Shown in pieces: positions 13,297 through 21,600 of a stretch of 64,000 nucleotides of DNA; position 1 is the first letter of the stretch; each line of letters starts with the position of its first letter. This DNA comes from Methanoregulaceae archaeon (GTDB lineage: Bacteria > Armatimonadota > Fimbriimonadia > Fimbriimonadales > Fimbriimonadaceae): positions 248,001-312,000 of the forward strand of contig JADZEW010000001.1 in the NCBI GenBank assembly GCA_020850325.1, in the 5' to 3' direction. The notes below the pieces were generated by a model. It ran no database searches and was not told the origin of the DNA. It was given only the letters and a program-made list of their open reading frames with translations. The position numbers were made by a program, and so were the translations under genes.

Positions 13297-13412
13297 CCCC
13301 CTCTCCTCGCTGGCGGGGAGAGGGGGCTGGGGGGTGAGGGGTCCTTACACTACGCCCCTCACCCCGGCTCGCTATCGCTCGCCGACCCTCTCCCCACAAG
13401 TGAGGAGAGGGT
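13297..13412. repeat. Composite palindromic intergenic element (three hairpins)
   Basis: Three nested or adjacent hairpins fill the gap between two genes: 13297-13306 with 13317-13326 (10 bp), 13331-13341 with 13355-13365 (11 bp), and 13385-13393 with 13404-13412 (9 bp). The outer units are variants of the same CCCTCTCC/GGAGAGGG sequence in inverted order. Such C/T-rich palindromes are commonly dispersed in GC-rich genomes. No coding frame is visible in it. Confidence 0.7.
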
Positions 13413-13429: not shown

Positions 13430-14878
13430 TCACCCCATCCCCACCGGATCATACGGATCGGACAAGTCCACGTACTCGTGCCGCCCGGTCGCCACGCCGT
13501 TCCAATCGAACACATAGAACTTCGGCCCCTTCCGCTGCAGCACTTCACGCACCAGCTGCCCCCGCCGATGCGCCCGGGTGTCCTTGGGCGGCTCGGTCAT
13601 GGCGTCGACAATATCCAAGTCGGTAATCATGCGACGACTGGGTACCGCGCCGAACAGGCTCAGTGCGGGATCGATGTTGTGGTACTCCAAGTCCACTGAG
13701 TGCAAGGCGTCGTCGCTCCACTCCAGTCCCTCCTCCGCGCGATAAGCATCGACGATCTGTCGCTTGGCCACCCAGTCGATCCGATCGGCCAGGCTCATCG
13801 GGTCGCGCTCCAAGCCGTCGAGGATCGCCTCCCACTCGTCCAGAATCCAATTCGTCTGCTCGGTCTCCCCGCGATACACCTGCGCCGCACGAAGGTAGAT
13901 CCGTTGCAAGTCGATTGCCGATAGGGTGTCGCCATCCATCATGCGCACCCGCCAACGATAGGTCGGATCGCGGGAGACCTCCCGAAGCGCGATGATTGGA
14001 TGGTCGAGGATCACCTCGTCTCCGATCAGATCATCCTCCAGCAGGCGGATGACCAAGCACGTCGTGCCCACCTTCAGCGCGTAGGCGTACTCGTTCTGGT
14101 TAGGTTCGCCAAAGAGCAGGTGGAGGCGGGTCGTCATGCCGTCGTGGCTGTAGTAATGCTCCCACTTCGGGTTGATCAGCGCCCGATTGAACCGCACCCG
14201 AGAGGCCATGCCCTTGAGAATGTGGTCGGCCCGCTGGCTCAACTGAAACTCCACGTCCGGATCGGGGACGACGCCATACACGTGGGAAACCCAGATGAAG
14301 TCGATCGGGTTCTCGCGGACCTGCCGCTCGCTGGGTAGCCCGCCTTCAGCGGTGAGGATGTGCCCCCCAACCCGGCCCACGCCCGCGTAGATCTGCCTTG
14401 TGACGAGGAAGGGATACAGCCGGTAGGCGACGCGGTTCAGAAGGTCATCCTCGGCCAGGATGAGGTAGTTCTCATGGCAGCCAAACGTGTGGCCCCCGAA
14501 GTGGTCGACGCTGTTGTTGTAAACCGACACCACGTCCTGCAGGCCGAGGTCTTTGATTGCGCGCACAATCATGCGCTGCCCGGCGCGGTCGTTCGCCACC
14601 AAGTCCTTCAAAGAGCGGCACTCGGCGGTGGCGTACTCCAGGTGGCTACCCACGGCATCGACGTACAGCCGCGCTCCGTTCATCAGGAAGCCGCCCGAGT
14701 GCGAGGGCTCGAAAACGTCATCGCGCGAGTGAATGTCGATCGCACCGAGCTTCTGGTCAAAGACGTGATCCTTGATCATCTCCACCGCGGTCTCTGGGTT
14801 GCCGAAATCGGAGTCAGCCACGAGAGTGCCAAACTCGGTCTCGACGCCGAAGATCCGGTCGCGCGGGAAGTCGCTCAT
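13430..14878 (-). CDS. pafA: Pup/UBact-ligase family protein (PafA-like carboxylate-amine ligase)
   Basis: 482 residues with the PafA/Dop fold signatures. ATP/metal site: FGVETEFG near residue 10. Catalytic-base region: NGARLYVDAVGSHLEYATAEC near 68-88, with the Asp kept. Other matches are HTFGCHENYLI near 130, LVTRQIYAGVGRVG near 157, LSQRADHI near 215, LKVGTTCLVIRLLE near 275 and ALREVSRDPT near 298. The C-terminal domain (MTEPPKDTRAHRRGQ) also matches PafA, and the Dop-specific loop is not apparent. PafA joins a Pup-like modifier to substrate lysines, marking them for a proteasome. No pup/UBact, dop, proteasome or ARC/Mpa gene lies nearby. TAGAAT 5 nt upstream suggests a leaderless start. 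Confidence 0.9.
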   Translation of the reverse strand: MSDFPRDRIFGVETEFGTLVADSDFGNPETAVEMIKDHVFDQKLGAIDIHSRDDVFEPSHSGGFLMNGARLYVDAVGSHLEYATAECRSLKDLVANDRAGQRMIVRAIKDLGLQDVVSVYNNSVDHFGGHTFGCHENYLILAEDDLLNRVAYRLYPFLVTRQIYAGVGRVGGHILTAEGGLPSERQVRENPIDFIWVSHVYGVVPDPDVEFQLSQRADHILKGMASRVRFNRALINPKWEHYYSHDGMTTRLHLLFGEPNQNEYAYALKVGTTCLVIRLLEDDLIGDEVILDHPIIALREVSRDPTYRWRVRMMDGDTLSAIDLQRIYLRAAQVYRGETEQTNWILDEWEAILDGLERDPMSLADRIDWVAKRQIVDAYRAEEGLEWSDDALHSVDLEYHNIDPALSLFGAVPSRRMITDLDIVDAMTEPPKDTRAHRRGQLVREVLQRKGPKFYVFDWNGVATGRHEYVDLSDPYDPVGMG

Positions 14879-14935: not shown

Positions 14936-15289
14936 GTGCAAGCGATCACGTTCCTGCCGACCCTCGATCTCGCCGCGACCCACGCCTTCTACGCCGACCA
15001 ACTCGGCTTTCCCTTGGTGCTCGATCAGGGAACCTGCCGCGTGTACCAAGTCGGGACGGCGTTCTGGGGATTCTGTCGGGCCGGAGTGCCGATGGCCGAT
15101 CCGCGCCGAGTAACGCTAACCCTCGTCGATGAGGATGTTGACGCCTGGCACGCCAGGTTGGCGGCAAGCGGAGTACCCGTCGATGGTGAACCACGGGACA
15201 ACCAGCAATACCGGATCTACCACTTTTATGCGACCGACCCGAATGGCTACCAGCTCGAGGTTCAGAGGTTCCTGCACCCGTTCCCATAG
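14936..15289 (+). CDS. VOC superfamily (glyoxalase/bleomycin-resistance-like) protein
   Basis: A 117-residue single-domain VOC protein. Two beta-alpha-beta-beta-beta modules are visible: LPTLDLAATHAFYADQLGF at the N-terminus and LVDEDVDAWHARL in the middle. It ends in YHFYATDPNGYQLEVQRF, where the Glu of YQLEVQ occupies a common metal-ligand position. Functions in this fold range from isomerases to dioxygenases and antibiotic-binding proteins; nothing here selects among them. The start is GTG 14936, supported by a TACAAT at leaderless spacing. It is divergent from pafA. Confidence 0.75.
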   Translation: MQAITFLPTLDLAATHAFYADQLGFPLVLDQGTCRVYQVGTAFWGFCRAGVPMADPRRVTLTLVDEDVDAWHARLAASGVPVDGEPRDNQQYRIYHFYATDPNGYQLEVQRFLHPFP

Positions 15290-18125: not shown

Positions 18126-21100
18126 CTACGCCTCGGGATCGTCGTCGACCGTGATGCGCTTCTTAGACTCCGTTGTCGGAGCCGCCACTTGACCCGGGGC
18201 GTTCCCCGCCGCGAGGGCTTCCGCCGCCGCTTCGGCCATCGCCGAGCTCATCGAACCGCGCTTCGACCACCAGATCGAGAACGCGAGAGCAACCACACAG
18301 ACGCCGGTGATGATGCCGTTCGTCATATCCGACCGGACTTGGATCACGAACGGAGCCAGCAAGAGCGCCACCAGGTTCATAACCTTGATGAGCGGGTTCA
18401 TTGCCGGACCAGCCGTATCCTTGAACGGATCGCCGACCGTGTCGCAGACGACACCGGCCTTATGAGCTTCGCTACCCTTACCGCCGTAAAGGCCGTCTTC
18501 GATCAGCTTCTTGGCGTTGTCCCACATGCCGCCAGAGTTGGCGAGAAGGACGGCCATCAGCTGGCCGCTGACAATGGCGCCGGCGAGGAAACCACCCAGC
18601 GCCTGAGCGCCAGCGAGGTTGTAGCCGCCGACCGACGGAGCGCCGATCGAGAAGCCGAAGGCAACCGCCATCGGCAGCGCGATCGCGAGGATCGCCGGGC
18701 CGAGGAGTTCCTTCTGGGCCGCCGCCGTGACGATGGCGACACAGTTCGCATAGTTCGGCTTGCTCGTTCCGGCCATGATGCCCGGATCGTTGCGGAACTG
18801 GCGGCGAACCTCGTTGATCAGCTGGAAGGCCGCACGGCCGACCGCGTTGATCGTGGAGGAAGCGAACAGATACGGAGCGGCGGCACCGATGAGCAGACCC
18901 AAGAAGATCTGCGGGATGTCGAGCCGCATACCGATATCGGCGAGCTTAGCTTCTTCGACGAACGAGTGGAACAAGGCAACCGCCGCGACGACCGCGGTTG
19001 CGATCGCGAAGCCCTTGGTAAGCGCCTTGGTCGTGTTGCCGGCGGCGTCGAGCCGCTGGACGGCCTTGGATCCGCTCGGGCTGTCGTGGCCGGCACCCGA
19101 CATCTCGAAGACGCCTTGGGCGTTATCCGAGATCGGGCCGAACGTGTCCATCGCGAGGATGAAGCCAGTCGTCGTCAAGAGACCCAGACCCACGAGCGCA
19201 ATGCCGTAGAAGCTGAGCAGCAGGGTGCCGTAATCCCCGGGGCTGAAGATAATCAGCGGGAAGATGAGGGCAACGACGATCGAAAGCACGGAGAACACAC
19301 TCGACTCACACGCCAGAGCAAAGCCCTGGATGATCATCGGCGCGGGGCCCGCGTTCGAGACGCCCGCAATCTCCTTGACCGGACCCTTGTGGGTGCTGAC
19401 GTAGTAGTCGGTGAGAATCTCGATGAAGAAGGCCATCAAGATGCCGAAGATGATACACGCGGCAAAAGTCCACCACGGAACCGACGTCTGAACGAGTTGG
19501 CCGACCGTGAAGGTAACCGGATTCGGCTGCGGCATGTTGCGCGCCTCTTCCAGAACCTTCTGCGCCTCGGCGTTCTTCGCCTCCTGTGCCGCGTCCTTCA
19601 ACGTCGTCGCTTCTTGCGCGAGCTTCTGATACTCGTCGAACTTCAGGCGAACTTCGTCGCGGATCGTCTTCAGCTTGTCGGTAGGCAAGTTGAAGACCTG
19701 ATCGCCCGCCATCTGGCGCTGAAGGCTCAGCAGGATGTCGTTTTCCGGTACATCGAGACCGATCGCGACGTTTCCGCCGCCATCGACGAAGAACTGCGGC
19801 GAGGCGCCGTTCTCGTCGCCGACGATCTTCTGCGACTGGGCAGCGAGACCTTCCTTGAACTTAGCTGCATCGTCGGTGAGGACGTAAGCAGTCTTCTCCT
19901 TAGGAGCCTCGGTGCTTCCCGGCGCAGGCACGCCCGGCTCGGTGACCTTGAAGACGCGGACGCTCTGGTACGCCTCGGCGGCAGTCAGGTACTGCGGCTC
20001 GCCTCCGGTCGTGGAGTTCTTAACCACCGTGAGGTTCTTGAGCTGCTCAGAGTCCAGAGAGACCGGCTTGAAGCCGCTGAGCGGCTTGATTCGATCGATC
20101 TGATCGGGCGGAGCCATAATCGCCGCGCTGATCAGATTCTCGAGGTTGTCGGGGGGCAGGTTGAGCGCCTTGAGACCCGAGTGATCCTTGATGTCGGCCA
20201 CGCGGATTTCCCACTCAGCCTTGCCGGACTCCTTCGCGATCTGATCGCGAACCGCCTTGATGCCTTCGATCTTGCTCTTGGCAATCTCGAGGTCCGAGCG
20301 GATCATGCGCGTAGCGATGAGGCTCTTGCCGTCGCCGCCCATCATGACGTAGGCCAGCGCAACGGTGCCGATCGCGGCGATACCCGCGGAGAGCCAGAAG
20401 CCCTTGCGGATCGCGGTCAGCGGATCGCTGTCGATATCGTCGCTGCCCTTGACCGAGTAGATGCCGAAGATGGACGCGATGATTCCCACGCCGCGCGCCA
20501 TCAAAGCGAACAGGATGAGTTTCATCCACGTGGCCTGGTCGAAGATCGATGCCGTTGCTGCACCGAGAACAATCGCGGCGACCAGCGTGACTTCGTAAGA
20601 CTCAAAGATGTCGGCGGCCATACCGGCACAGTCGCCGACGTTGTCGCCCACGTTGTCGGCGATCGTGGCCGGGTTGCGGGGGTCATCCTCAGGAATGCCC
20701 GCCTCGACCTTACCAACGAGGTCGGCACCGACGTCAGCGGCCTTGGTGAAGATGCCGCCGCCGACACGCATGAAAAGCGCGGCAAGCGAACCACCAAAGC
20801 CAAAACCGATCAGCAGCTTCATCGCGTCGCCGCCACCGGCGAGCAGGATGATCGTCGCGCCGAGCAGACCCATACCGACCGTGATGAGGCCCGCAACGGA
20901 GCCCGACCGGAAGGCGATCTCAAGCGTGGCCTTGTAGCTCGAAAGCGCGGCGTGAGCCGTGCGCATGTTGCCGCGAACGGCCATATCCATGCCCACGTAA
21001 CCGGCGATGTACGAGGCGGCAACGCCCGCTACAAAGCTGAGCGCAGTAAAGACCGCGGTCATCGTGCCGTACGAGTTCATGTACAGGACGACCAGAAGGG

Positions 21101-21428
21101 CCGAGATCAGAAGCACGAACCAGATCATCGTAGCGACCTGGCGCTTCAGATAGGCGATAGCGCCTTCGTGAATCGCGCCGCCGACTTCCTGCATTTTCTC
21201 GCTGCCCGGCGACTTCGCAAGCACTTGGCCGCGGATAATGAAACCGACCGCGAGCGCAATGAAGCCGAGCACCAACGAGATGTACAAGAACATCTTGTCG
21301 GACTGCGAGAACTCGAGGACGATGTTGGCTTCTCCCCCGGCCGCCATTGAGAAAGCGGGAACCAGAGTGAGTAGTAAGGCAAGAATCGCGGACTGCCACC
21401 TCCGCGTTGCCAAGTCTGTCAACCTCAT
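18126..21428 (-). CDS. hppA: Membrane-bound proton-pumping pyrophosphatase with a large extracytoplasmic insertion
   Basis: Couples pyrophosphate hydrolysis to ion pumping. The start chosen is ATG 21428, which begins a membrane or signal segment; an in-frame ATG at 21542 lies upstream. 1100 residues against the usual 650-800. The catalytic region is intact: DVGADLVGKVEAG, EDDPRNPATIADNVGDNVGD near 233-275, and a late DTVGDPFKDTAGPAMNP block. GNTTKALTKGFAI near residue 797 has Lys where K-dependent enzymes have Ala, so this is predicted K-independent and proton-pumping. About 285 extra residues, roughly 365-650, sit between two membrane helices. They are soluble, rich in Lys/Glu/Asp, and end in a coiled-coil-like helix (TLKDAAQEAKNAEAQKVLEEAR). 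Confidence 0.93.
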   Translation of the reverse strand: MRLTDLATRRWQSAILALLLTLVPAFSMAAGGEANIVLEFSQSDKMFLYISLVLGFIALAVGFIIRGQVLAKSPGSEKMQEVGGAIHEGAIAYLKRQVATMIWFVLLISALLVVLYMNSYGTMTAVFTALSFVAGVAASYIAGYVGMDMAVRGNMRTAHAALSSYKATLEIAFRSGSVAGLITVGMGLLGATIILLAGGGDAMKLLIGFGFGGSLAALFMRVGGGIFTKAADVGADLVGKVEAGIPEDDPRNPATIADNVGDNVGDCAGMAADIFESYEVTLVAAIVLGAATASIFDQATWMKLILFALMARGVGIIASIFGIYSVKGSDDIDSDPLTAIRKGFWLSAGIAAIGTVALAYVMMGGDGKSLIATRMIRSDLEIAKSKIEGIKAVRDQIAKESGKAEWEIRVADIKDHSGLKALNLPPDNLENLISAAIMAPPDQIDRIKPLSGFKPVSLDSEQLKNLTVVKNSTTGGEPQYLTAAEAYQSVRVFKVTEPGVPAPGSTEAPKEKTAYVLTDDAAKFKEGLAAQSQKIVGDENGASPQFFVDGGGNVAIGLDVPENDILLSLQRQMAGDQVFNLPTDKLKTIRDEVRLKFDEYQKLAQEATTLKDAAQEAKNAEAQKVLEEARNMPQPNPVTFTVGQLVQTSVPWWTFAACIIFGILMAFFIEILTDYYVSTHKGPVKEIAGVSNAGPAPMIIQGFALACESSVFSVLSIVVALIFPLIIFSPGDYGTLLLSFYGIALVGLGLLTTTGFILAMDTFGPISDNAQGVFEMSGAGHDSPSGSKAVQRLDAAGNTTKALTKGFAIATAVVAAVALFHSFVEEAKLADIGMRLDIPQIFLGLLIGAAAPYLFASSTINAVGRAAFQLINEVRRQFRNDPGIMAGTSKPNYANCVAIVTAAAQKELLGPAILAIALPMAVAFGFSIGAPSVGGYNLAGAQALGGFLAGAIVSGQLMAVLLANSGGMWDNAKKLIEDGLYGGKGSEAHKAGVVCDTVGDPFKDTAGPAMNPLIKVMNLVALLLAPFVIQVRSDMTNGIITGVCVVALAFSIWWSKRGSMSSAMAEAAAEALAAGNAPGQVAAPTTESKKRITVDDDPEA

Positions 21429-21600
21429 TTTTTGCAAACAACCCCCGTTTGCACGCTTCCATGCCAGATGCACTTGGCCGTGAGTGGTCCGGCTAGGATA
21501 CCCGGTCGAAGGAAGATGAAGGAAAGTTTGCACCGACGTCATTGCACGAAAGCCAGCGCGTGGGGTAACGAGAATCCTGCGTCTAACTTGCCTCGTCAGC

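Follow-up and report, generated by a model that had tools for sequence, protein, structure and literature searches.

A PafA-type enzyme of the Fimbriimonadaceae as the very probable ligase of a complete UBact–proteasome system with scattered genes

The question that this locus raises is what a PafA-type ligase does when no modifier, no reverse enzyme and no proteasome is encoded near it. The window, by which we mean the whole 64,000-nucleotide stretch of DNA that was analysed (C1:248001-312000), belongs to a draft genome of 3.5 Mb, which is 98% complete and was searched whole. The host of the ligase is a member of the Fimbriimonadaceae (Armatimonadota). The first-pass annotation had described the gene as an orphan PafA-type ligase with no pup, dop or proteasome genes near it, and had pointed to the UBact modifiers of Gram-negative phyla. 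Based on our analysis, the gene very probably encodes the ligase of a complete UBact–proteasome system, the genes of which lie dispersed at four or more loci; UBact is a small ubiquitin-like tag for proteins. This reading is based on the genes and their families, on conserved catalytic residues, on joint presence and loss of the components and on the intact cluster in relatives.

The enzyme and its distinction from Dop

The ORF is conserved far above chance and is a real gene; the copy in a congener, the nearest named relative (a Fimbriimonadaceae bacterium), shows 96% identity, and the mean column identity in an alignment of 41 ligase sequences is 65%. The protein matches PF03136 (Pup_ligase, Pfam) over residues 8-462 with 399.2 bits against a cut-off of 25 (E 3.3e-119); it thus passes the curated threshold over the whole domain and is a member of the Pup_ligase superfamily. 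The motifs that had been quoted for it, FGVETEFG, NGARLYVDAVGSHLEYATAEC and LSQRAD, are all found. Related ligases, with Dop adjoining, are found at three Bipolaricaulota loci.

The ATP-binding GhExE and the catalytic Asp, a trait of PafA (the Pup ligase), are retained in the window protein. Its E13 and E15 align with E16 and E18 of C. glutamicum PafA and its D74 aligns with D64; these residues are invariant in the 41 sequences. The positions that match C. glutamicum PafA H68 and E70 are invariant too. An AlphaFold model that was built from 41 related sequences (mean pLDDT 85, pTM 0.89) gives Z of 33-43 against Dop and PafA crystal structures, and Z of 13-21, well under these values, against glutamate-cysteine ligases and glutamine synthetases. 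The first-pass annotation had tied its assignment to the retention of the ATP-binding and catalytic Asp residues and to a place among PafA and Dop; the residues are in place and the fold is nearest to Dop and PafA.

One possible option is that the protein is a second depupylase or deamidase, Dop-like, rather than a ligase. Its NCBIfam scores for PafA and Dop are near each other (283.9 and 274.1 bits), phmmer places Dop above PafA, and Dop structures rank slightly above PafA in both Foldseek and VIA-align; since this difference is only slight, the fold searches do not discriminate a ligase from Dop. The Dop loop is present in Dop and missing from PafA (PMC8599861, PMC7947786). Its RGF motif is seen in 52 of the 55 Dop-type sequences, whereas it is missing in all 111 PafA-type sequences fetched (some duplicates) and in the window ligase, and the stretch from the ATP motif to the NGAR motif, which precedes the catalytic Asp, is 49 residues long in the window ligase versus 77 in the Dop of the same genome. 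The PafA-unique residues beside the catalytic Asp (V-G-S-H and A-T-A) are found as AVGSH and ATA, with one residue extra, together with a PafA-type QRADH, and a canonical Dop is separately encoded in the genome. A Dop-like identity is therefore very improbable, and it was rejected because the loop typical of Dop is missing and the motifs are those of PafA, so that the earlier assignment to the PafA type stands. The score is well under the cut-off of the PafA equivalog TIGR03686 (283.9 versus 551.3 bits), for which reason we class the protein as a UBact-type ligase and not as an actinobacterial PafA equivalog. This score, barely above that for Dop, and the loss of most PafA residues from the alpha-loop (see below) were counted against the UBact-ligase reading.

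The rest of the system and its gene order

The window itself holds none of the genes for Dop, UBact, the proteasome subunits or the proteasomal ATPase, as had largely been noticed earlier, and the whole-genome searches place these genes on C30, C18 and C16 (Table 1); together with C1, the system occupies four loci in this genome. The hint at UBact was a good one, as PF20513 and NF033388 both exceed their cut-offs in the genome. The modifier has 61 residues and the C-terminal sequence ...KKYRQRSGE, and the stop codon of its gene overlaps the prcB start. A gene for 706 amino acids (redoxin/TPR-like by eye) lies on the opposite strand between dop and the ubact-prcB pair. The Dop on C30 is matched best by depupylase_Dop (341.8 versus 267.9 bits) and carries the W-D-Y...RGF Dop loop. 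PrcA, PrcB, the ATPase and Dop all score under the actinobacterial equivalog cut-offs. The genome search proposed by the first-pass annotation, for prcA/prcB, an ARC-type ATPase and a small modifier, has thus found every one of them, with an SGE end in UBact.

Table 1. Positions of the ligase gene, its parts and neighbours (window coordinates) and of the other system genes (contig coordinates)
Feature	Position	Strand	Basis or remark
pafA-type UBact ligase	13430..14878	minus	482 aa + stop (stop inside coordinates); PF03136, Dop loop absent, VGSH/QRADH, tree, fold
ATP/Mg motif GVETEFG, residues 11-17	14828..14848	minus	alignment; invariant in 41 relatives
Catalytic Asp segment NGARLYVDAVGSHLEYA, residues 67-83	14630..14680	minus	alignment with C. 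glutamicum PafA
Segment with clade-specific insert, residues ~173-208, ahead of alpha-loop	14255..14362	minus	alignment
REP-like palindromic repeat, downstream of pafA, outside the enzyme	13299..13411	.	inverted repeat arms
Divergent gene upstream of pafA	14936-15289	divergent from pafA	putative VOC, name from the first-pass annotation
dop	C30:28930-30219	same as ubact, prcB	second PF03136 protein
ubact	C30:26413-26541	same as dop	PF20513 E 2.4e-20; NF033388 E 6.8e-21, 74.2 bits vs cut-off 35
prcB	C30, overlapping ubact stop	same as dop, ubact	20S_bact_beta best match, E 3.6e-34
prcA	C18:33325-33990		E 1.4e-13; conserved in relatives
Mpa/ARC-type ATPase gene	C16:152071-153534		E 2.5e-133

Known proteasomal ATPases dock on the 20S core via tails with a penultimate Tyr (HbYX or GQYL). 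Such a penultimate Tyr was found in none of the 30 Mpa/ARC-type ATPase tails inspected. The ATPases of this order mostly have a basic-polar-hydrophobic tail, for example RRTVI.

Another question is whether the scattering is only apparent. In two families of the same order as the host (f2 and f3) the genes dop-ubact-prcB-prcA-pafA lie within about 5 kb, as seen at four loci. The window's own family (f1) has pafA away from dop and ubact, either on a separate contig or at a large distance, in 32 of the 32 genomes where both could be placed (hand count); in four single-contig genomes of this family it lies ~1 Mb from them. Separation of pafA is also seen in some f2 and f5 genomes. The scattering of the system genes is real and no assembly effect, and of the possibilities raised earlier it is the broken cluster that describes the case, with an intact cluster in sister families and four loci here. 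Among 61 genomes, a PF03136 protein is found in 59, the ATPase in 58, UBact in 54 and PrcA in 52, while G029 (1.5 Mb) and G039 are without ligase, Dop, UBact, PrcA and ATPase altogether; the single proteasome-family match in G039 is probably HslV, judged by length only. The system is retained or lost as one unit.

No conserved new neighbourhood of pafA that is common to the whole family was found; the neighbours in the window recur only in the congener, except that dxs is matched at one or two further loci. The repeats reported beside the gene are indeed there, as a REP-like palindrome pair (CCCTCTCC...GGAGAGGG), and repeat-like sequences occur at ~25 places in the genome, an approximate number obtained with a query sequence ~9% mismatched to the window. 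The window gave no Rfam match. It also holds a membrane-pyrophosphatase-like ORF (18126-21542, 1138 aa) with a large mid-protein insertion, as judged by eye.

That the ligase is an orphan whose modifier is gone and which works on another substrate, for instance as a small-molecule carboxylate-amine ligase, is hardly credible: its gene is alone in the window, with neighbours conserved only in the congener, but UBact, Dop, PrcA, PrcB and the ATPase are all encoded in its genome, it is present or lost jointly with UBact, Dop, PrcA and the ATPase, and in sister families it lies inside the UBact cluster. An orphan or repurposed ligase was rejected after the whole-genome searches, and both the label 'orphan' and the suggestion of an absent modifier have to be given up.

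The alpha-loop, the insert and the origin of the UBact ligases

The alpha-loop is critical for ligase versus hydrolase activity (PMC7947786). It reads TTRSRPIINTRDEPH in actinobacterial PafA versus VRFNRALINPKWE in the UBact-ligase clade, where V, R, F, N and P-K-W are almost invariant, so that VRFNRA/NPKW in this clade stands against TTRSRP/NTRDEPH in actinobacterial PafA. Of the nine PafA-unique residues of the loop (H188, W190, E191, G192, S194, S195, A196, R199 and S200 in Cg numbering; PMC7947786, table 1) the window ligase retains only H, G and one S, and the rest are L, K, A, R, F and N. The segment of residues ~173-208 has a greater length than its counterparts in actinobacterial PafA and Dop, and D193, Y201, V203 and D206 in it are invariant in the 41 relatives. 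Because of the changed alpha-loop and the conserved insert, the ligases of this clade form a diverged subclass, and the low PafA equivalog score is explained by the same two differences.

A PafA/Dop phylogeny, as had been proposed earlier, was run with two Nonomuraea PafA sequences; in a previous tree, which relied on one incomplete C. glutamicum PafA, there was a long branch. In the free tree, actinobacterial PafA groups with actinobacterial Dop (support 93/95), and when all PafA were constrained together this grouping was not rejected (AU p 0.195). We regard it as unlikely that the UBact ligases and actinobacterial PafA are non-orthologous; the UBact ligases would then have arisen separately, or by a very early split, from a Dop-like ancestor, with an alpha-loop and insert of their own that may serve in target choice. 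The free tree leans toward such a separate origin and the alpha-loop differences fit it, whereas a single duplication is favoured by the Dop loop common to both Dop clades and by the VGSH insertion common to the two clades of ligases.

Two database records deserve mention here. In Nonomuraea gerenzanensis, NZ_LT559118.1 (11.85-Mb, with a plasmid label, probably the chromosome) carries two close PafA paralogues ~5.9 Mb apart. A 33.5-kb plasmid record of Tsukamurella tyrosinosolvens, NZ_LR134462.1, has a PafA/Dop-family match.

Proposed mechanism and comparison with known systems

A literature search retrieved no open paper on UBact biochemistry, and the steps given here are inferred from homology. 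With ATP, the ligase would phosphorylate UBact at the gamma-carboxylate of its C-terminal Glu, and a target lysine would then attack the phosphorylated UBact, resulting in an isopeptide bond. The Mpa/ARC-type ATPase may recognise the UBact tag and hand the tagged protein over to the 20S core of PrcA and PrcB for degradation, and Dop is expected to take the tag off the target. As ...SGE is encoded directly, UBact deamidation is unnecessary in the window's genome. The 22 distinct UBact C-terminal sequences in relatives comprise 12 with SGQ and 10 with SGE, and therefore the need for Dop as a deamidase switched within one order. The two endings differ between genera inside one family.

The supposed puzzle of this locus is gone, in that a tag, a reverse enzyme and a proteasome for this ligase are encoded at other places of the genome, and 'orphan' calls from a single window are untrustworthy for scattered systems. 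Target choice in the UBact-ligase subclass is a question that studies of actinobacterial PafA do not settle, and the UBact-specific alpha-loop and insert offer concrete candidate residues for it.

A complete UBact–proteasome system with scattered genes is of an already known kind. With the actinobacterial Pup–proteasome system it shares the enzyme superfamily, the fold, the catalytic Glu/Glu/Asp and a Dop with the Dop loop, whereas its modifier is UBact and not Pup, its ligase has another alpha-loop, a conserved insert within residues 173-208 and one residue more after the catalytic Asp (D-A-V-G-S-H) than actinobacterial PafA, and its ATPase is without a GQYL-type C-terminus. The UBact conjugation system of Gram-negative phyla was reportedly described by Lehmann et al. 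in 2017, and the modifier is a curated family in Pfam (PF20513) and NCBIfam (NF033388); clustering of the genes is usual in such systems but does not define them. As in that system, all components are present, namely a UBact that ends in SGE/SGQ, a ligase of the PafA type, Dop, PrcA/PrcB and a proteasomal ATPase; unlike it, the genes lie at four or more loci instead of in one cluster, with pafA apart throughout the window's family.
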